Assembly (NCBI GenBank): GCA_947588655.1
Contig: CANPYS010000012.1
Coordinates: forward strand, 1 to 48,952
Source: an uncultured Alphaproteobacteria bacterium
GTDB lineage: Bacteria > Pseudomonadota > Alphaproteobacteria > RF32 > CAG-239
Direction: 5' to 3'
DNA: 48,952 nucleotides
Positions 131-40,466 of the stretch are shown here, piece after piece. The position numbers and the translations under genes are program-made. The notes under the pieces were generated by a model, which was given only the letters and a program-made list of their open reading frames with translations, was not told where the DNA came from and made no database searches. Within the stretch, counting starts at the first letter, position 1. Each line of letters begins with the position of its first letter.

Positions 131-2680
131 ATGAAGTACATTTTATTTTTGATAGCAATTTTGTTTTCGGGGCAAGCGGTGGCTTTGGAGTGTGTCAAGC
201 AACCAAGTTGCGCTGCTTTAGGCTATAAGCAAGAAAACGACCCTATGTGCGCCGATGACGGTTATATTCTTTGCCCTTTTGATTTTTCCTATAAAAAATG
301 TGCAGAATTTGATTGTGCAAAGCTCGGTTTTACAAAGTCTGAGAAATCTTCTTGGTGTGGTAAAATCAGCTATTGCCTAACAGATAAGTCTTATTCTGCT
401 TGTGTTGAAGATATTCCCTGTGCCGAGGGTTACACAAAAGAAATTCATGATATTGACGCTTGTGGTGAGACGGGTGCTTTAGGTTGGGCTTTAGAATCGT
501 ACAGTCAAAATCCGCTTTGCAAAAAATGCACACCCAAAACTTGTTCAAAAGGTTCTCTTTTTACCGATATTTCAGAATGTTCATTCTCAGGCACAAAATA
601 TGCCGAATTGGTTGAGACCGAAAGTTATGCTGGTAATGAGGCGTGTAAAGAATGCGTTTGCCACGCCGATGAAGCAAAATGCCCATGGAATAAAGATAAC
701 GTTGGCAAAGACGGTCAAGTTTCAGGCGAAGTCTGTTGCAATGGTAATAGTACACAATGTCAAAACCATTGCCAAGCGGTTGTTGTGCCGGATCACGCGT
801 CAACAACAGAAACATGTTCGGCATGCGGACAAACTGTTCCGACGGCATGGGAATGCCATGCGGGTTATACGCGCGTAGACGATATTTGCCAACCGTCGCA
901 ATGTTTGAACAACGGCTCCACATCACAAGATTTAACAGAATGTTTGAAAGCGCCGTTTAGCTATTTAGGAACAAAATATGCTAGCCGAACAGAAACAGGA
1001 CAATATTCTGGTACAGAAAAATGTTATACATGTTCATGTGACACAAGCTCTGCTTATAGCGCTTGCACTTGGGATGAGAGTAAGAGGGGTGCAAATGGAA
1101 CTTTAGAAGATCCATGTTGTAACGGCAAATACGCCACTTGTAACACGACTTGTTCGCCTGTAACGGTGCCTGATTATGCCACAGGTAAAGATTATTGTGA
1201 CGGGTGTGGTAAATCAGGTTATACAGGTTGGGATTGCAATCAAGGATATGAGAACAACAATGCCGGCGGATGTCAAATCAGGACATGTCCGAGTGGTTTT
1301 GTAACGGAGTCTAATGTGGCGGGCTGTGGTACAAAAGACGGTTGGCATTTAGGGGCAGAAACAAATGGATACAGTGGCGCTGAGATATGCAAGAAATGTG
1401 AGGCAAACACCTGTGAGGGGTATCCGTTAGGGAATTGTCCGGATAAAGGTCATTGCACACCATGTCAGAAAGGCGATGCGCAGGCTTTCCGGTTAGAAAG
1501 TTGTGACAACTACTGGACACCAAATGCTAATAAAACAGCTTGCGAACCTGCGGCTTGCTTAAAAGGCGACACGTCTAGTGATACAGCGAACTGTTACTCT
1601 GGATTATATGGCGCCACCAAAACACTTAATGGTTATTATTCGGGAAACAGTCCATGTTATGATTGTCAATGCAATGCCACAGAATGCACTTGGGATAATA
1701 ACAACAAAGGAACAAGTGGTAGTTTAAGCACCAAGTGTTGCAATGATAAATATAAAGATTGCACCGATAATACAATATCTGTAACTGTTCCCGAAAACGC
1801 CACTTGTAATGGATATCATTCAGCATGTGGAAAGAATGATAAATGTAAATCTTGGGCGTGTAATGAGGGATTTGTGATAAGAGATGACGCATGCATGGTA
1901 CCATGTAAAGTTGGCAATGTGTTTTATGCGGACGGAAGTTGTGGCGATGTGAAAAACTATACCAAAGGTTCAGGCAAAATACCGGTTGGCGTGGTGTATT
2001 GGATTAAAGACCAAGGTGCGCATGGTAAGGTGATTAACTTGAAAGACTTAGGTAGAGAAGCGGATAATAAGTCATTTGATCCGACAAATCCGTATAAAAC
2101 AGCGCATTTGTATTGGGGATATTATAGGTATAATGTTCCAAATCTGAAAGATTATGGATATGATAATAATACACTAGCAGCATTGCAGAATAGAGATTCT
2201 GATTTATATAATGGTAAGGAAAATACAGATAAGATATTAGCAGATTCTGGTCCAGCTAATTGTAGCTATGGGAAAGACACTGAACAATATTATCAATCTT
2301 GTATACCGCAAGCGGCTCAGGCGGCACGGGCTTTTTATCCTCCAGTAGTTCAACCGAATAATCAGATTGTTGGTGCAGGGCATTGGTATTTACCCGCGCT
2401 TGGAGAGTTAATGGAGCTATATGGATATAACAATAGTGAAATAACGAAGTATTCAGGGACATCAGGCGCCAAGAGCAATAACAAAACTATAATAAACAAT
2501 ACCTTGAGCGCTTTGAAGAGCAAGAGTGTTGATGCTGAAACGCTAACAAAAGAGTGGTATTGGTCGTCGACAGAGAAAGATACTGAGGATTCATGGGGGC
2601 TCAGGATGAGTGATGGTTTCCGGTTCGATTTGAATAAGAACTTCAATTTTTACTATCTTCGTGTGGGCTTAGAGTTTTAG
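131..2680 (+). CDS. Secreted cysteine-rich repeat protein with C-terminal DUF1566-like domain (paralogue A)
   Basis: An 849-aa protein of unknown function. I start it at ATG 131, preceded by GAAAGGA, because a typical Sec signal peptide begins there (MKYILFLIAILFSGQAVA); an upstream frame start at 17 lies in repeat DNA. After the signal come about 75 residues with many cysteines that are shared with the proteins at 34717-35922 and 38976-40175. Next come about three cysteine-rich modules near residues 175-290, 300-410 and 510-590, each with a CC pair, a V-VP element and a W-C--GY element. From about residue 590 a cysteine-poor domain contains WYLPALGE near 750 and WYWSSTE near 808, followed by GFRF and LRVG, resembling DUF1566/Lcl-type C-lectin-like domains. 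Disulfide-rich extracellular or surface location is inferred. Binding partners cannot be read from the sequence. Confidence 0.85.
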   Translation: MKYILFLIAILFSGQAVALECVKQPSCAALGYKQENDPMCADDGYILCPFDFSYKKCAEFDCAKLGFTKSEKSSWCGKISYCLTDKSYSACVEDIPCAEGYTKEIHDIDACGETGALGWALESYSQNPLCKKCTPKTCSKGSLFTDISECSFSGTKYAELVETESYAGNEACKECVCHADEAKCPWNKDNVGKDGQVSGEVCCNGNSTQCQNHCQAVVVPDHASTTETCSACGQTVPTAWECHAGYTRVDDICQPSQCLNNGSTSQDLTECLKAPFSYLGTKYASRTETGQYSGTEKCYTCSCDTSSAYSACTWDESKRGANGTLEDPCCNGKYATCNTTCSPVTVPDYATGKDYCDGCGKSGYTGWDCNQGYENNNAGGCQIRTCPSGFVTESNVAGCGTKDGWHLGAETNGYSGAEICKKCEANTCEGYPLGNCPDKGHCTPCQKGDAQAFRLESCDNYWTPNANKTACEPAACLKGDTSSDTANCYSGLYGATKTLNGYYSGNSPCYDCQCNATECTWDNNNKGTSGSLSTKCCNDKYKDCTDNTISVTVPENATCNGYHSACGKNDKCKSWACNEGFVIRDDACMVPCKVGNVFYADGSCGDVKNYTKGSGKIPVGVVYWIKDQGAHGKVINLKDLGREADNKSFDPTNPYKTAHLYWGYYRYNVPNLKDYGYDNNTLAALQNRDSDLYNGKENTDKILADSGPANCSYGKDTEQYYQSCIPQAAQAARAFYPPVVQPNNQIVGAGHWYLPALGELMELYGYNNSEITKYSGTSGAKSNNKTIINNTLSALKSKSVDAETLTKEWYWSSTEKDTEDSWGLRMSDGFRFDLNKNFNFYYLRVGLEF

Positions 2681-34410: not shown

Positions 34411-34752
34411 GGGAACATGTCTAATGGGCACCTAGAGCGATTTTTTGCTCAAAAGTGTCCTCACGTACCTCTTACGTACGCTGCGGTACTTTTGGGCTTA
34501 AAATCACTCTATCTGCACCACTTCTTGCTCGTAAGTTTTGCGATTAACGCAAAACTAACTCGCTTCGGTCACCGCTCTGTAACGCTTGCATCGGCGCTTA
34601 TCAGCGCCTCGCAACCTAACACTCGCGTGATGTCGCCTTGCAAACACCAATTACTTTTGGTGTTTGCAAGGCTCCACCCCTTTCCGCGGACTATGAGAAA
34701 AATAAGGATTTGTTTTTTATTCTTTTCTCCAATTTGGGGAATTGGGAATCTC
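34411..34752. repeat. Composite hairpin repeat, copy 1 (after atpD)
   Basis: Copy 1 of a composite element also found at 38669-39011 (near-complete) and 36427-36582 (partial). Contents in order: GGGAACATGTCTA...CCTAG; GAGC-GATTTTTT-GCTC; GTAC-containing stretches; AGTTTTGCG / CGCAAAACT inverted repeat; CTTGC...GGCGC-TTATCA-GCGCC...GCAAG-type nested palindrome; a perfect 16-bp stem with TTACTT loop at 34635-34672; then a stretch nearly identical to copy 2 that runs into the 3' end of the minus-strand gene at 34717. The 34380-34716 gap holds this repeat and no gene that I can support. Confidence 0.85.
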
Positions 34753-35922
34753 TGGCAAGGTTGTTGTGGCGGAAGTGGTTGGGTGATATGAAACACCTTT
34801 ATAAACCAATGTGTCCGTCAAGTTAGAGGCGGTGATTTCTATAGTTTCCGACCAAACCATGAGCCCTTCAAGCTGGAGAAGAACAGGATTTTGCGAGGTC
34901 CCTGACAATACCAAATTATACTTATGTTGCGCTTCATTTGTCATGCGCTCAGTAATGTTGAAAGAAACCCGGCTCCCTTCCTCAAAAAGATATTTTCCTT
35001 CTTTCGGCCCATAAGCAAAAAGTTTTTCTGCCGTTATGTTCGCCGTTGTTCCCTTAAATCTGAAAGGAGCCCCGTTAGAAAAAGCGTTTGCTTTCGTAAT
35101 ATTTATTTGGGCGTTTTCAAAAGTTAACTCTGAGTTCCAAAAAACACTTCCGTTAGGATTTGTGAAAGAGGCTGTCAAATTGGTACCCGCAAATTGAATT
35201 TTTGAGGATTTAAAAACATTACAATGTATGGAGTTAAGATTAATGTCAACTTTGTCTTTAAAAATAAAAGTTGCGTTATAGAAAGCTGCATTTTCTTGAT
35301 TTTCTGTCACTTGCGAATCATAAATTAAGGAAACATTTTCTAAGGAAACAATGTTGTCTTTGTTAGAACTGTTGATATAAACATGGTTATAGTGAGTCAC
35401 ACTGTCTTGATGATGCAGATTGATGTTTTTGAAAGCGGTGTTGTTTTCAACAGTTATGACTGTTTTATTTGCTTGATTCGCAAAAGTTGATAGCGTATGC
35501 CCGCTGCCATCAAGCGTGGTATTGGCAGCAAGCGTGAAGCCTTGGTTTTCAGGAATGGTGATGTCGTTTTTCATGGTTACAACTTTGCATTTACCGGAAC
35601 CTGCAAGGCTTGAAAGCGTGTCTGAATCCCAAGCTAAACAAGGTGTTTGGCAAAGTGTGTAACTTTTATCGCCTTTGCAGGTGGCAATATCCGCGCACCA
35701 AGCTGATTTGTCTGATTGCGTAAAGCCTAAAGTTTCGCAATTATAGCGAACACACTTTTTATATGATTGGTCGTAAGGACAAAGAATATAACCGTTTTTA
35801 TCACATTTTGGATTATCTTCTTTGGAATAATTTAATTCTTCACAAGTCGGTTGCTTTTCACAATTCAACGCCACCGCTTGTCCTGAAAACAAAATCATAA
35901 CTAAAAATAAAACGTACTTCAT
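34717..35922 (-). CDS. Secreted cysteine-rich/beta-helix protein (paralogue B)
   Basis: A 401-aa protein of unknown function. It has a signal peptide (MKYVLFLVMILFSGQAVA) and about 75 cysteine-rich residues closely matching paralogues A and C. From about residue 105 there is a pectate-lyase-like right-handed beta-helix: short strands rich in N, T, I and V with ITIPENQGFTLAANTTLDGSG, the kind of start seen in such folds. It ends EIPNSPNWRKE, shared with paralogue C (one residue differs). ATG 35922 has AAGGAGGAAAG. The 5' and 3' ends are near-identical at DNA level to paralogue C, while the middle has diverged. Surface or periplasmic location is inferred from the signal peptide and disulfide-prone head. 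Confidence 0.85.
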   Translation of the reverse strand: MKYVLFLVMILFSGQAVALNCEKQPTCEELNYSKEDNPKCDKNGYILCPYDQSYKKCVRYNCETLGFTQSDKSAWCADIATCKGDKSYTLCQTPCLAWDSDTLSSLAGSGKCKVVTMKNDITIPENQGFTLAANTTLDGSGHTLSTFANQANKTVITVENNTAFKNINLHHQDSVTHYNHVYINSSNKDNIVSLENVSLIYDSQVTENQENAAFYNATFIFKDKVDINLNSIHCNVFKSSKIQFAGTNLTASFTNPNGSVFWNSELTFENAQINITKANAFSNGAPFRFKGTTANITAEKLFAYGPKEGKYLFEEGSRVSFNITERMTNEAQHKYNLVLSGTSQNPVLLQLEGLMVWSETIEITASNLTDTLVYKGVSYHPTTSATTTLPEIPNSPNWRKE

Positions 35923-35944
35923 TCTTTCCTCCTTAAATTAAAAA

Positions 35945-36070
35945 GTTCTCCCATCCGAATCGTCATCCTGAAACGACCCCAAAAGTCAACCCAAAACGAC
36001 CCAAAATGTCATGCTGAACTTGTTTCAGCATCTCTTTTTATGAGCGCCCGAAACGAATTTGGGATGACGT
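35945..36070. repeat. Palindromic repeats upstream of paralogue B
   Basis: Contains, in reverse orientation, the elements seen at 1-104: CGTCATCCTGAAACGACC, and the ATGCTGAA / TTCAGCAT palindrome in the stretch ending near 36033. A GGATGACG-like piece follows near 36061. The arrangement relative to the cysteine-rich gene is the same as for paralogue A, so the repeat and gene seem to travel together. Confidence 0.7.
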
Positions 36071-36104
36071 TTTAGAGAGACTTTCCCTCTTTTGTTCTAG
36101 CCAA

Positions 36105-36229
36105 AGAAATGTGGAGAGTGGTGCAGATAAAGTCGTTTCAAAAGTGAGGAAAATTTGAGCGTACATAGACGTACGTGAATTTTCCGAACTTGAAGAAAAG
36201 GCTTTAGATGTGCCGCTATACACATTTCT
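36105..36229. repeat. Inverted-repeat element with internal GTAC palindrome
   Basis: AGAAATGTG (36105-36113) and CACATTTCT (36221-36229) bound a 125-bp segment containing CGTACATAGACGTACG. A piece reading ATCTGCACCACT on the minus strand recurs near 34512-34523 within the composite repeat. No convincing gene is present; the 64-aa open frame here shows no coding features. It looks like a short non-autonomous element. Confidence 0.45.
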
Positions 36230-36364
36230 CAAAAAAAGGTACGTTTAAATGCGCGTTTCATCAAGAAAATAACCTTTTGAAAAATCTCAAAAATTTTCCT
36301 TGACAAATTGTACATTTAAAGGTACGTTTTTTTGTGCATGTTTTATTGATAAGTTATTGATTTT
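36227..36364 (+). repeat. 138-bp module with inverted GTAC arms, copy 1
   Basis: Arms at 36231-36251 and 36313-36333 (21 bp each) are inverted repeats with two mismatches; both read A/T-run-GTAC-TTTAAATG in the paired orientation. Copy 2 lies at 40328-40466. A promoter-like TTGACA (36300-36305) with TACGTT (36323-36328) sits in the right part, reading plus. The end TGATAAGTTATTGATTTT is shared by both copies. Confidence 0.75.
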
Positions 36365-36426
36365 CTTGTTTTTTCTTTGTCATTCCGGACTTGTTTCGGA
36401 ATCTCATAAAAAGATGCTGAAATATT

Positions 36427-36582
36427 CTTGCTCATAAGTTTTGCGTTTATCGCAAAACTAACTCGCTTCGGTCACCGCTCTGTAACGCTTGCATCGGCGC
36501 TTATCAGCGCCTCGCAAGCTAACCCTCGCGTTATCTCGCTTTCAAAACACCAATTACTTTTGGTGTTTTTATAGGCTCTACA
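36427..36582. repeat. Composite hairpin repeat, copy 3 (partial)
   Basis: Lacks the left third of copies 1 and 2. It keeps CTTGCTCATAAGTTTTGCG, the nested GCTTGC / GCAAGC palindrome around GGCGC-TTATCA-GCGCC, and a hairpin at 36544-36569 (AAAACACCAA / TTGGTGTTTT, loop TTACTT). A palindrome ATTCCG...CGGAAT lies just upstream near 36384-36405. The 35923-36686 gap is filled by this and the neighbouring repeats, with no supported gene. Confidence 0.8.
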
Positions 36583-36623
36583 GCATGACGATTCGGATGT
36601 TTTTTACACTTGGATTCTTCGGC

Positions 36624-36670
36624 TTCTTGCTCATAGAACAGAGCTTACGAGCAAGAAGGACGTTTTTTTA
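36624..36670 (+). terminator. Terminator-like hairpin with T7 tail
   Basis: A 10-bp stem (CTTCTTGCTC / GAGCAAGAAG) with a 16-nt loop, followed by TTTTTTT at 36664-36670 on the plus strand. It is related in sequence to the CTCGTAAG...GAGCAA piece of the composite repeats. No plus-strand gene precedes it, so it may end a non-coding transcript or be part of the repeat family. It also lies just beyond the end of proS. Confidence 0.55.
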
Positions 36671-36686
36671 ATAAATAAAGCTATGG

Positions 36687-38204
36687 CTAATATGAACGCG
36701 CGTAAATCACATCAATTGTTGCCGGCTTGCCGGTTAAGAGGCAGGTGCCCTCTGTGCCGGACTGGTCAAAAGGCAGACAGCGGATGGTTATTTTCATATT
36801 TTTGAGCAATTGGTCGCTGTTTTCATCGCCACTCCATTTGCCACGCACAAAAGCCACTTTGCCTTGTTTGCCCTCTTCAATCCATTGGTTCGCCTCGGCA
36901 AAATACGTTTGAAAGGCCTCAGGCGTGGTAATATCAGTGCGAATGTTACTGAACAGGCGCGTTTGGGCGCGTTCAAACATAGTTTTTTGAATGTTTTGCA
37001 CACGCTCGGCCGCTGTTGCGCAAAATTCCGCACGCGGCGCAATCTGCTTGCCTTCCGGCGTACCTAACTTTAAGCGCTCTTTAATCATCACATTGCCGGC
37101 ATCGGCATCACGCTTGCCGATTTCAAGAATAATCGGCGCTCCTTTGCGCGTCCATTCCCAAAACTTATCCACGGAAGATTTATCGCGCCGGTCAATTTTA
37201 AGACGGAGCTTTTCGCCAAAAGGCGTTTGCGCGCTTAAATCTTGGCGAATCTCTTCAATATAAGCCATAACCGCCTCTTCATCCGCCGGATTTTTAATAA
37301 CCGGCACAATCACAATCTGATAAGGCGCAATCTTGGGTGGCACAATCATCCCTTCATCATCGGCATGAGTCATAATCAGACCACCGATTAAACGCGTGGA
37401 CACACCCCAAGAAGTGGTGTAAGCAAATTCCGGCTGATTTTGGCGATTAATGAAACTGATATTCGCCGATTTCGCAAAATTTTGCCCCAAGAAATGCGAT
37501 GTTCCGGCTTGTAAAGATTTGCCGTCTTGCATCATCGCTTCAATACAATAAGTATCAACCGCGCCGGGAAATTTATCATATTCGGGCTTGCGTCCCATAA
37601 TCACAGGCATAGCCAAACTTTCTTCACATAACTCGCGGTAAGCCTCAAGCATCAGCTTTGTTTCCGCTTCCGCTTCGGCGGCGGTGGCGTGCGCGGTGTG
37701 ACCTTCCTGCCACAAAAACTCCCGCGTGCGCAAAAACAGCCGCGGACGCATTTCCCAACGCACAACATTTGCCCATTGATTGATTAAAACCGGCAAGTCG
37801 CGGTAAGACTTAATCCACTTGGAAAAAGCATCGGCAATAATGGTTTCAGATGTCGGGCGGACAATTAAGGGCTCCTCAAGCTTGGAATCGGGGACAAGTT
37901 TGCCTTCATGCATTGACAGGCGCGAATGCGTCACCACCGCCATTTCTTTGGCAAAACCATCCACATGCTCGGCTTCTTTCCGGAAAAAAGAAAGCGGAAT
38001 AAACATCGGAAAATAGCAGTTCTCATGACCGGTTGATTTAATCTTTTCATCAAAAATATCACGAATGCGCTCCCAAATGCCGTAACCCCAAGGTTTAATG
38101 ACCATGCAACCGGGGGAAGACGAGTTTTCGGCCATATCGGCCTCGCTGACCACACATTGATACCATTCGGGATAATTTTCTTGGCGCGTTTTCTTTAAAG
38201 ACAT
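36687..38204 (-). CDS. proS: Prolyl-tRNA synthetase, archaeal/eukaryotic-like type
   Basis: A 505-aa class II synthetase that charges tRNA-Pro. Motif 2 and its surroundings are visible (VIRPTSETII-like PLIVRPTSETII, then VVRWEMRPRLFLRTREFLWQEGHTAHAT), and motif 3 region GGLIMTHADDEG. The anticodon-binding domain begins near residue 285. A C-terminal domain ends with TGKPATIDVIYARSY. The lack of an editing insertion in the middle and the C-terminal extension ending in tyrosine are features of the archaeal/eukaryotic-like form rather than the usual bacterial one. ATG 38204 has AAGGAGA. The gene lies, on the opposite strand, between atpD and atpC. Confidence 0.95.
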   Translation of the reverse strand: MSLKKTRQENYPEWYQCVVSEADMAENSSSPGCMVIKPWGYGIWERIRDIFDEKIKSTGHENCYFPMFIPLSFFRKEAEHVDGFAKEMAVVTHSRLSMHEGKLVPDSKLEEPLIVRPTSETIIADAFSKWIKSYRDLPVLINQWANVVRWEMRPRLFLRTREFLWQEGHTAHATAAEAEAETKLMLEAYRELCEESLAMPVIMGRKPEYDKFPGAVDTYCIEAMMQDGKSLQAGTSHFLGQNFAKSANISFINRQNQPEFAYTTSWGVSTRLIGGLIMTHADDEGMIVPPKIAPYQIVIVPVIKNPADEEAVMAYIEEIRQDLSAQTPFGEKLRLKIDRRDKSSVDKFWEWTRKGAPIILEIGKRDADAGNVMIKERLKLGTPEGKQIAPRAEFCATAAERVQNIQKTMFERAQTRLFSNIRTDITTPEAFQTYFAEANQWIEEGKQGKVAFVRGKWSGDENSDQLLKNMKITIRCLPFDQSGTEGTCLLTGKPATIDVIYARSY

Positions 38205-38238
38205 AAAGCTATTCTCCTTTTTTCATAAATAATGAAAC

Positions 38239-38263
38239 ATTCGCGAACCCCAATGCCGCGAAT
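38239..38263 (-). promoter_or_regulatory. Inverted repeat in the proS leader
   Basis: ATTCGCG (38239-38245) and CGCGAAT (38257-38263) form a short palindrome between the proS promoter and its ribosome-binding site. It could be a leader hairpin or protein-binding site. Function is unknown. Confidence 0.35.
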
Positions 38264-38273
38264 TTGTGCAAGG

Positions 38274-38302
38274 ACTATAACAAAATAAAATTAAAATGTA
38301 CA
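38274..38302 (-). promoter_or_regulatory. Candidate promoter of proS
   Basis: On the minus strand, TGTACA (38297-38302) and TATAGT (38274-38279) are 17 bp apart, giving a leader of about 60-70 nt. The same 219-bp gap must also hold the promoter for atpC on the plus strand; a weak TTGCAA with TAAGTT is visible near 38363-38390. Confidence 0.5.
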
Positions 38303-38423
38303 GTGTTTTTTAATGCTTACAAAAAATTGCAGATTAATGGCATTTGAACCGCAAAATAGTTCTTGCAAACCGAAATATTTGGAGTAAGTTAAAAACATAA
38401 GGATATTAAAAAGGAAAACACCG

Positions 38424-38693
38424 ATGCCGATTGCTCTTGAGATTTATGCCCCCGAAAAACTTGTTTTTAGCGATAAAGCGGATAAGGTTGTTTTGCCCGT
38501 GGCGGAAGGCACGCTGACCATTATTCAAGGACGCGCGCCACGACTTCAGGCTTTAACGGCAGGTGATGTTGTTCTTTTAGATGAAGCGAATCGCGAGGTG
38601 AAGAGGGTTGGCATTAGCGGAGGGGTGGCTGATATAGCATCTGAAAAAGTTCACCTCCTCTTAGTCTCGGGAACGCGTCTCATGGGCGCCTAG
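38424..38693 (+). CDS. atpC: ATP synthase F1 subunit epsilon, short form
   Basis: An 89-aa protein matching the N-terminal beta-sandwich domain of epsilon (MPIALEIYAPEKLVFS..., then VLPVAEGTLTIIQGRAP, and GGVADIASEKVHLLLVS). It couples the gamma shaft to the c-ring. Bacterial epsilon normally has a further 40-50 residues forming two regulatory helices; these are absent. The last nine codons and the TAG stop lie in a sequence repeated after atpD (34411) and related to 5469, so the 3' end may have been altered by the repeat. The start has AAAAAGGAAA. It is separated from atpHAGD by a repeat cassette and proS, so it needs its own promoter. Confidence 0.9.
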   Translation: MPIALEIYAPEKLVFSDKADKVVLPVAEGTLTIIQGRAPRLQALTAGDVVLLDEANREVKRVGISGGVADIASEKVHLLLVSGTRLMGA

Positions 38694-39011
38694 AGCGATT
38701 TTTTGCTCAAAAGTGTCCTCATGTACTTCTATGGTCTTACTCGTAAGTTTTGCGTTAATCGCAAAACTAACTCGTTTCGATCTTGCTCGTAAGCTCTGCT
38801 CTATGAGCAATCGCTAACTCGCTTCGGTCACCGCTCTGTAACGCTTGCATCGGCGCTTATCAGCGCCTCACAACCTAACACTCGCGTGATGTCGCCTTGC
38901 AAACACCAATTACTTTTGGTGTTTGCAAGGCTCCACCCCTTTCCGTGGACTATGAGAAAAATAAGGATTTGTTTTTTATTCTTTTCTCCAATCTGGGGAA
39001 TTTGGAATCTC
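38669..39011. repeat. Composite hairpin repeat, copy 2 (overlapping the atpC end)
   Basis: Same order of elements as copy 1: GGGAACGCGTCTC...CCTAG, GAGC-GATTTTTT-GCTC, AGTTTTGCG / CGCAAAACT, then an extra CTCGTAAGCTCTGCTCTATGAGC-type hairpin not found in copy 1. The nested GGCGC-TTATCA-GCGCC palindrome and the 16-bp stem with TTACTT loop at 38894-38931 follow. The right part continues into the 3' end of paralogue C. Its left end supplies the last atpC codons and stop. Confidence 0.85.
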
Positions 39012-40175
39012 CGAAAGTTTTGTTGTGCCGATTTGTTTCGGGCGGTATGTGACACCATTCAAAATAAATTTATCTGTGGTGTTGGTTGCCACAATATTAG
39101 TTTTCTCCGCCCCGTCCCCGCTATATTTCATCTTTAACACAGCAGGGTTTTCAGCGGTGCCTTTAAGCGTTATTGACGCTGCTTTTTGATTACCTTGTGA
39201 GTATAAAGAAGAGAGTTCTAAACTAACATTTGCATCCTCTTTCAAAATCAAGTTAAGATCGTGATATATAGCATAAAAAAGATAACCTCCTTTTAAATTT
39301 GCTTCACTATTTTGAAATGTTACAGAATATCCAGCCATAAAAAGGGAACTTAAGGTCTCAAGCTGAATTGTGGCGTTTGTAAAGGTTAAATCAACTGTAT
39401 CAGATATAGTTGCATGATTCCCTTTCAAATAAACTTGGGCATCTGTGAAATTATATGTGCCTCTAAAAAAGCCGACCATAGAGCGCTTGGCCTCTATATC
39501 AAGCGCAAATTTTCCGCGTATATTATAAGTGCCATCATTAAAAACGGCACTCCATACAGTCGTATTGTCATCTGAAGAAATCAAAATATCCATATTTTCA
39601 AGAGAAATCGTATCATCAGCAGAAGCTATTAAAAAACTAAACTCTTCTAGATTACCCGCTGTGTGGCGAATTTTGATGTTTTTCATTCCTGTGTTATTCT
39701 TAGCCCTCACAACGATATGTTCAGCTTGATTACTTGATGATGTCAATGTGTGCCCGCCACCGTCAATGACGGTATTTTCTGCCAAAGTAAGAGATTCGTT
39801 AAGGGGTATGGTAATGTCATTTTTCATTGTGATAATTTTGCATTTTCCCGATTCCGCAAGGTTGCTAAATTCCTCATAAGTGGTTGCAAAGCAAGGCGAT
39901 TGGCAGGCTGTAAAGGTTTCGTCCGTTTTGCAATGCGCAATATCCGCGCACCATTCTGATTTGTCTGATTGTGTAAAACCAAGCGACTCGCAATTAAAGT
40001 TGACACATTTTTTATAGGATTGGTCATAAGGGCAAAGAATATAACCGTTTTTATCACATTTTGGATTATCTTCTTTGGAATAATTTAATTCTTCACAAGT
40101 CGGTTGCTTGCTACAATCTAAAGCCACCGCCTGACTTGAAAACAAAATCATCATTAAAAATAAAACGTACTTCAT
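38976..40175 (-). CDS. Secreted cysteine-rich/beta-helix protein (paralogue C)
   Basis: A 399-aa protein of unknown function. ATG 40175 (AAGGAGGAAAG upstream) begins the signal peptide MKYVLFLMMILFSSQAVA; the frame extends upstream to 40211 without support. The cysteine-rich head (about residues 20-95) is very close to that of paralogue B. The body is a predicted beta-helix with ITIPLNESLTLAENTVIDGGG and many short strands, but differs from B in sequence. The C-terminus SEIPNSPDWRKE is again shared. Conserved ends with a diverged middle suggest recombination or selection on the passenger. Exported location is inferred. Confidence 0.85.
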   Translation of the reverse strand: MKYVLFLMMILFSSQAVALDCSKQPTCEELNYSKEDNPKCDKNGYILCPYDQSYKKCVNFNCESLGFTQSDKSEWCADIAHCKTDETFTACQSPCFATTYEEFSNLAESGKCKIITMKNDITIPLNESLTLAENTVIDGGGHTLTSSSNQAEHIVVRAKNNTGMKNIKIRHTAGNLEEFSFLIASADDTISLENMDILISSDDNTTVWSAVFNDGTYNIRGKFALDIEAKRSMVGFFRGTYNFTDAQVYLKGNHATISDTVDLTFTNATIQLETLSSLFMAGYSVTFQNSEANLKGGYLFYAIYHDLNLILKEDANVSLELSSLYSQGNQKAASITLKGTAENPAVLKMKYSGDGAEKTNIVATNTTDKFILNGVTYRPKQIGTTKLSEIPNSPDWRKE

Positions 40176-40204
40176 TCTTTCCTCCTTAATTACAGACTCC
40201 GCCG

Positions 40205-40310
40205 TCGTCACTCTGAGCGTCAGCGAAGAGTCCAGGACAACAAATTAGCTATATTGTTCCTGGATGCTTCGCGAATGGTGCTATCGCATCAAAGCTCAGC
40301 ATGACGTTTG
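40205..40310. repeat. Palindromic repeats upstream of paralogue C
   Basis: Includes an imperfect inverted pair TCCAGGACAACAA / TTGTTCCTGGA around AATTAGCTATA (about 40228-40262), the phrases CACTCTGAGCGTCAGCGAAG and CTTCGCGAATG, and CTCAGCATGACG. It is a different palindromic family from the one upstream of paralogues A and B, but in the same position relative to the gene. Confidence 0.65.
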
Positions 40311-40327
40311 AGTGAGATTTTTCCCTC

Positions 40328-40466
40328 TCTCAAAAAAAGGTACGTTTAAATGCGCAAATCGTCAAAGAAATTTATATTTGAAAAAACAATGCATTATTTT
40401 CTTGACAAATTGCACATTTAAAGGTACGTTTTTTTACACACGATTTTATGATAAGTTATTGATTTT
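40328..40466 (+). repeat. 138-bp module with inverted GTAC arms, copy 2
   Basis: Arms at 40332-40352 and 40415-40435 match copy 1 exactly, while the spacer between them has diverged. TTGACA (40402-40407) and TACGTT (40425-40430) recur at the same spacing. The module lies on the promoter side of paralogue C, as copy 1 does for paralogue B. Confidence 0.75.

Follow-up and report, generated by a model that had tools for sequence, protein, structure and literature searches.

The two units of about 2 kb that lie after atpD and after atpC in the window (the whole analyzed stretch of 48,952 nucleotides from an uncultured alphaproteobacterium) are most likely two members, both in the OFF orientation, of a phase-variation system in which about 50 DNA switches would serve one gene family. 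Comparison of copies among paralogs and between two species indicates that the module with GTAC cores found upstream of the genes is very probably an invertible promoter. Promoter activity, ongoing inversion, an Mpi-type enzyme and a surface role of the products are what we infer from nucleotide and protein sequences.

Two units at the atp locus

According to the initial annotation, a composite repeat, a cysteine-rich gene on the minus strand, a palindromic repeat and a 138-bp GTAC module occur in this order at positions 34411–36364 and again at 38669–40466. The order is indeed present twice, all blocks being co-linear and 81–95% identical: 34411–34472 matches 38669–38730 (90%); 34555–34771, which takes in the 3' end of the gene, matches 38814–39030 (95%); 35633–35932, with the 5' end of the gene, matches 39886–40185 (84%); and the module consists of two blocks, 36227–36284 matching 40328–40385 (81%) and 36295–36364 matching 40397–40466 (87%). 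The description of the ends as nearly identical and of the gene middles as diverged also holds, as the middles give no DNA alignment between the two units; the overall identity of the two proteins is 45–46%.

In unit 1, the composite intergenic repeat (34411–34716), which contains strong hairpins and is dispersed rather than specific for the gene family, is followed by family gene 1 (34717–35922, minus strand, 401 aa), encoding a signal peptide, a cysteine-rich N terminus of about 100 aa and a C-terminal right-handed beta-helix domain. Element 1 comprises the gene-side inverted arm AAAAAAAGGTACGTTTAAATG (36231–36251, GTAC core at 36239–36242), the distal inverted arm CATTTAAAGGTACGTTTTTTT (36313–36333, GTAC core at 36322–36325) and a putative plus-strand promoter (36300–36328) composed of TTGACA (36300–36305), 17 nt and TACGTT (36323–36328), with the -10 box inside the distal arm. 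This promoter is directed away from gene 1, that is, the element is OFF.

Unit 2 has the same layout: a composite repeat (38669–38975), the first 25 nt of which are the end of the atpC ORF; family gene 2 (38976–40175, minus strand, 399 aa), of the beta-helix type and with the same N terminus as gene 1; and element 2 with the gene-side arm at 40332–40352 (GTAC core at 40340–40343), the distal arm at 40415–40435 (GTAC core at 40424–40427) and a putative plus-strand promoter (40402–40430; TTGACA at 40402–40407, 17 nt, TACGTT at 40425–40430), again directed away from the gene (OFF). Between element 2 and gene 2 lies the palindromic repeat (40185–40325, minus strand), which would fall in the 5' leader and has a strong predicted RNA fold (-50.7 kcal/mol, z -4.9). 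A third regional copy of the composite repeat (36458–36581, plus strand, 91% over 124 bp) has no family gene attached. The third family member of the window is a long form of 849 aa with an Lcl_C-like C-terminal domain (131–2680, plus strand), and its upstream region is cut off by the contig end.

The comparison with relatives covered the atpD–atpC region. In about ten other genera examined atpC directly follows atpD; here the two are separated by proS and a family gene, and hence, as had been proposed, material has entered between and after atpD and atpC. The sister species likewise has proS ahead of atpC; on the other side of atpC it has an element and a family gene, the latter in the opposite orientation. 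The units had been thought to begin exactly at the 3' ends of the atp genes. Both do start near such an end, but not exactly at it: 32 nt separate the atpD stop (34379) from the start of copy 1, and copy 2 begins inside the atpC ORF, 24 nt before its end (38693). The atpC ORF (38424–38693) encodes only 89 aa, where the ORFs of other genera encode about 116–138, and the repeat supplies its last 25 nt; judging from these lengths, the epsilon subunit appears to have lost its C-terminal portion.

Copies in the genome

The search of the window's own genome (1.55 Mb, 55 contigs) yielded about 54 members of the gene family, 76 matching pieces of the GTAC module on 52 elements, 52 matches of the composite repeat, often without a family gene, and 43 matches of the outer repeat. 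The units are amplified and carry a gene for a secreted cysteine-rich protein, as had been supposed, and the roughly 50 further copies rule out a single old tandem duplication with no other copies. Many family genes and repeats are located at contig ends (for example, C9:96, C12:131, C32:4 and C34:289), and the gene family therefore probably has more than 54 members.

The GTAC module is found 130–670 bp upstream of 44 of the 54 family genes. Of the ten remaining genes, six start no more than about 290 bp from the end of a contig, two lack any module, one is broken and has a module about 790 bp upstream, and the module of C36:4271 is diverged. Only 9 of 46 family genes, in turn, have a composite repeat at most 400 bp from their 3' end. 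These two counts suggest that the conserved unit is the module with its gene and not the whole cassette. The idea of a mobile, non-autonomous cassette whose ends are fixed is not supported: constant ends common to all copies, which a transposable cassette needs, are not observed, and the composite repeats were rejected as transposon ends, being dispersed independently of family genes.

Several elements adjoin genes of other kinds. An OFF element, L021 (C22:5381–5522), is located 8 nt before an ORF of a family-8 glycosyltransferase (Pfam PF01501, E 5.5e-52), and the GTAC-module switches, to judge by this position, may also govern a glycan enzyme. Two elements with another spacer type, L254 (C15:36037) and L255 (C16:62), both OFF, adjoin other genes for cysteine-rich secreted proteins; L142 and L152, with another spacer type as well, lie beside other genes.

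Encoded proteins

All family members have the first approximately 100 residues in common, comprising a signal peptide and conserved cysteines. In the complete members this N terminus is followed by a beta-helix (16 members) or an Lcl_C-like domain (32 members); the latter domains have variable ends, for example in L087 (1547–2599) and in the window gene at 131–2680. Among the beta-helix members the mean pairwise identity is 0.7–0.85 in the first 120 or so amino acids and about 0.2–0.3 in the middle.

The AlphaFold2 model of the gene 1 product is an all-beta coil with pLDDT mostly 85–97 from residue 100 or so on, and this high model confidence past the N terminus supports a beta-helix domain. 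Foldseek found no match in PDB at E ≤ 0.001; the matches above this threshold are all beta-helix proteins, the best one being the L. reuteri SRRP adhesin (E 2.6e-3). Pfam matches of the gene products were weak throughout, with Pectate_lyase_5 below the cut-off for gene 2. Inspection of the sequences revealed no lipobox, the signal peptide ending in ...QAVA-L/I-N/D-C, and the products do not appear to be lipoproteins, a trait of the mpl family of Mycoplasma penetrans.

Structure of the module and the putative promoter

In gene orientation the module consists of the distal arm AAAAAAASGTACSTTTAAATG, a spacer and the gene-side arm CATTTAAACGTACSTTTTTTT. The two arms are inverted, carry GTAC cores and are separated by 77–88 nt from core to core; they form an inverted-repeat pair around a short segment in the intergenic region ahead of a gene, as expected of an inverton. 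One end of the spacer carries TTGACA, and in 87 of the 89 matches from two species it is followed after 17 nt by TACSTT, a -10-like hexamer situated in the arm. The latter is a weak sigma-70 match, and a scan of the window under E. coli consensus rules did not list the TTGACA-N17-TACSTT promoter. In class A and B spacers a second, weaker hexamer resembling TTGAT/TTGACG is present at 17 nt from the gene-side arm.

Strong hairpins between promoter and gene could lower expression. A terminator-like hairpin just upstream of the element was found in 14 of 50 cases in this genome (1.4 expected) and in 23 of 35 cases in the sister species (1.8 expected); such a hairpin would insulate an OFF gene. In this genome, 41 of 51 elements have an IHF-consensus match, WATCARNNNNTTR, at a distance of 37 nt upstream from the distal GTAC core; none of the 38 elements of the sister species has one, and the match was rejected as a general part of the element for this reason.

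Promoter orientation and inverted spacers in two species

We compared the orientation of 89 scorable elements, 51 in this genome (G000) and 38 in the sister species (G001), among paralogs and between species, using consensus assemblies. The promoter is directed away from the gene in 85 of them; in the other four, the spacer from one GTAC core to the other is present as its reverse complement, which turns the promoter toward the gene. Such a bias suggests that OFF is the usual state.

The only inverted element of this genome (1/51), C22:7671, lies upstream of the family gene C22:8046 and directs TTGACA-N17-TACCTT toward it; its spacer scores 0.93 against its relatives as the reverse complement and 0.57 in the forward orientation. 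In the sister species 35 of 38 elements point away from the gene and three are inverted, with reverse-complement and forward scores of 0.89 and 0.14 (L237), 0.78 and 0.07 (L249), and 0.95 and 0.15 (L250). In the inverted elements the inner arm sequences are swapped at GTAC, and the outer arm sequences and the flanks are unchanged. At the level of paralogs, homologous elements are thus found in either orientation (4/89 inverted), and the breakpoints fall in the repeats, as expected of an inverton.

The sister species shares the gene family and the arms with this genome, while its spacers are unrelated to those found here and fall into two length classes; the arms and the promoter geometry have been kept despite this lack of relationship. 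Independent inversions at the same breakpoints, with unrelated spacers and in two species, are a signature of site-specific recombination.

Candidate recombinases

The genome has five serine resolvase domain matches and encodes three tyrosine recombinases. Two intact serine recombinases of about 200 aa (on contigs C16 and C13) belong to the NCBIfam family NF009949, 'master DNA invertase Mpi family', scoring 298.6 and 279.9 bits at a cut-off of 272. A third Mpi-family gene, L084 (C18:8811–9236), contains one or more in-frame stops. None of the three Mpi-family genes of this genome has the element at its own promoter; in G001, an apparent case of an Mpi gene under control of the element was dropped, as the flank shows the distal side of an element for a gene beyond the contig end.

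The Mpi-type sites given in the published descriptions are ARACGTTCGTN for B. fragilis Mpi and GTTCGTTTAA for B. intestinalis (PMC8375218). The latter and the arm GTACGTTTAA are identical except for one base, and, judged by eye, the arm core AAACGTACGTTTAA resembles both sites. Mpi-family genes are present in 109 of the 126 genomes of the taxonomic family, most of them without this element, and their presence does not therefore single out the enzyme. The module is probably worked by an enzyme of the Mpi type, for which the two intact genes are good candidates.

Distribution in related genomes

Among these 126 genomes, the strict element pattern had 56 and 19 matches in this genome and the sister species, respectively (no matches of the reversed control pattern in either), and one match in the other 124 genomes. 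The strict pattern was found in only three genomes, and a looser one in six; four inspected looser-pattern matches outside the genus and the match in genome G024 are also directed away from the adjoining gene. The abundance of Mpi-family genes suggests that promoter inversion may be common in the taxonomic family. In viral collections no relatives of the gene family were found, and the single pattern match was in an unrelated phage-like contig.

Alternative explanations and proposed mechanism

If the module were a fixed two-sided regulatory site for a transcription factor, a paired operator with divergent promoters, recombination would not take place and the four inverted spacers would be old rearrangements. 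The conserved, near-palindromic arms could be read in this way, as could the IHF-consensus match in 41 of the 51 elements of this genome, and the weaker hexamer near the gene-side arm would make weak expression possible in the majority orientation. However, two species and two unrelated spacer types share inversion breakpoints at the GTAC cores, which a fixed site would not predict, a strong -35 box facing away from its gene in 85 elements out of 89 would be odd for a simple promoter, and Mpi-family recombinases do exist in the genome; we regard this explanation as improbable. Transposition of the whole unit as a non-autonomous mobile element, with the shared ends serving as transposon ends, would account for the many dispersed copies and for the material inserted between atpD and atpC in comparison with other genera, and at least the C15 and C32 genes have the 3' composite repeat arrangement of the window units. 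It is nevertheless very improbable, given that the composite repeat is found at 9 of 46 gene 3' ends and often without a gene, that a common outer boundary is absent, and that the family gene next to atpC in the sister species has the opposite orientation.

The likeliest route of spread of the units is recombination between dispersed repeats. In its full form, namely that homologous recombination and gene conversion between such repeats spread the units, with the invertible promoters as passengers and the variable middles resulting from recombination among paralogs, this explanation has about even chances; it is compatible with an invertible promoter and is consistent with the conserved ends and diverged middles across the family and with a paralog of 86% identity elsewhere in the genome.

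Returning to the invertible promoter, we propose that the arms, AAAAAAASGTACSTTTAAATG and its counterpart, flank a segment with a strong -35 box (TTGACA), the -10 box TACSTT residing in the arm, and that flipping of this segment would turn the promoter toward the gene or away from it. A site-specific recombinase would act at the GTAC cores and flip each copy; the most likely enzyme is one or the other of the two intact serine recombinases of the Mpi family, whose genes lie elsewhere in the genome. About 50 copies would thus control 54 secreted cysteine-rich proteins with variable beta-helix or Lcl_C domains; with most copies OFF and one or a few ON, cells should display different members. A scenario of antigenic variation that we offer only tentatively is that a trans-acting, OFF-biased Mpi-type invertase leaves one or a few of some fifty secreted proteins expressed per cell, and that the promoter sites also recombine together, reshuffling the genome.

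Comparison with known systems

Like the invertons of gut bacteria from PhaseFinder-type surveys, the elements would be short promoter segments between inverted repeats near genes for putative surface proteins; those invertons are defined by reads in both orientations, whereas the elements described here are known from assemblies. A 2018 inverton survey reports none in its four Alphaproteobacteria samples, and we found no description of a system of this kind for Alphaproteobacteria in the literature. The closest known systems are the Mpi network of Bacteroides and the mpl promoters of M. penetrans.

In B. fragilis, according to citing papers, one master serine recombinase, Mpi, acts on 13 distant invertible promoters; B. 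intestinalis has invertible capsule promoters of 183–186 bp with the transcription start inside the proximal repeat (PMC8375218). The similarities to our elements are recombinases of the same NCBIfam family, an arm core that looks similar by eye and a -10 box (predicted here) or start inside the arm, with the pairing of enzyme and site being here a candidate one, based on sequence. In contrast to Bacteroides, where mainly capsule operons are controlled, the elements have 77–88 nt from core to core and serve mostly one family of secreted proteins.

The mpl (P35) family of M. penetrans comprises 38 lipoprotein genes at several loci, most of which have their own invertible promoter and switch independently (Horino et al. 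2003, as cited in PMC2268961), and two candidate recombinase ORFs were named without proof. Here, too, a large paralogous family is spread over several loci, most members having their own predicted invertible promoter. Unlike mpl, the system belongs to a host from Alphaproteobacteria, has about 50 elements and Mpi-type serine enzymes as candidate recombinases, and encodes unrelated proteins without a lipobox, with a cysteine-rich N terminus followed by a beta-helix or Lcl_C domain. If our interpretation is true, an alphaproteobacterium with a 1.55-Mb genome devotes more than 50 genes and a like number of DNA switches to surface variation, on a scale resembling that of mycoplasmas.
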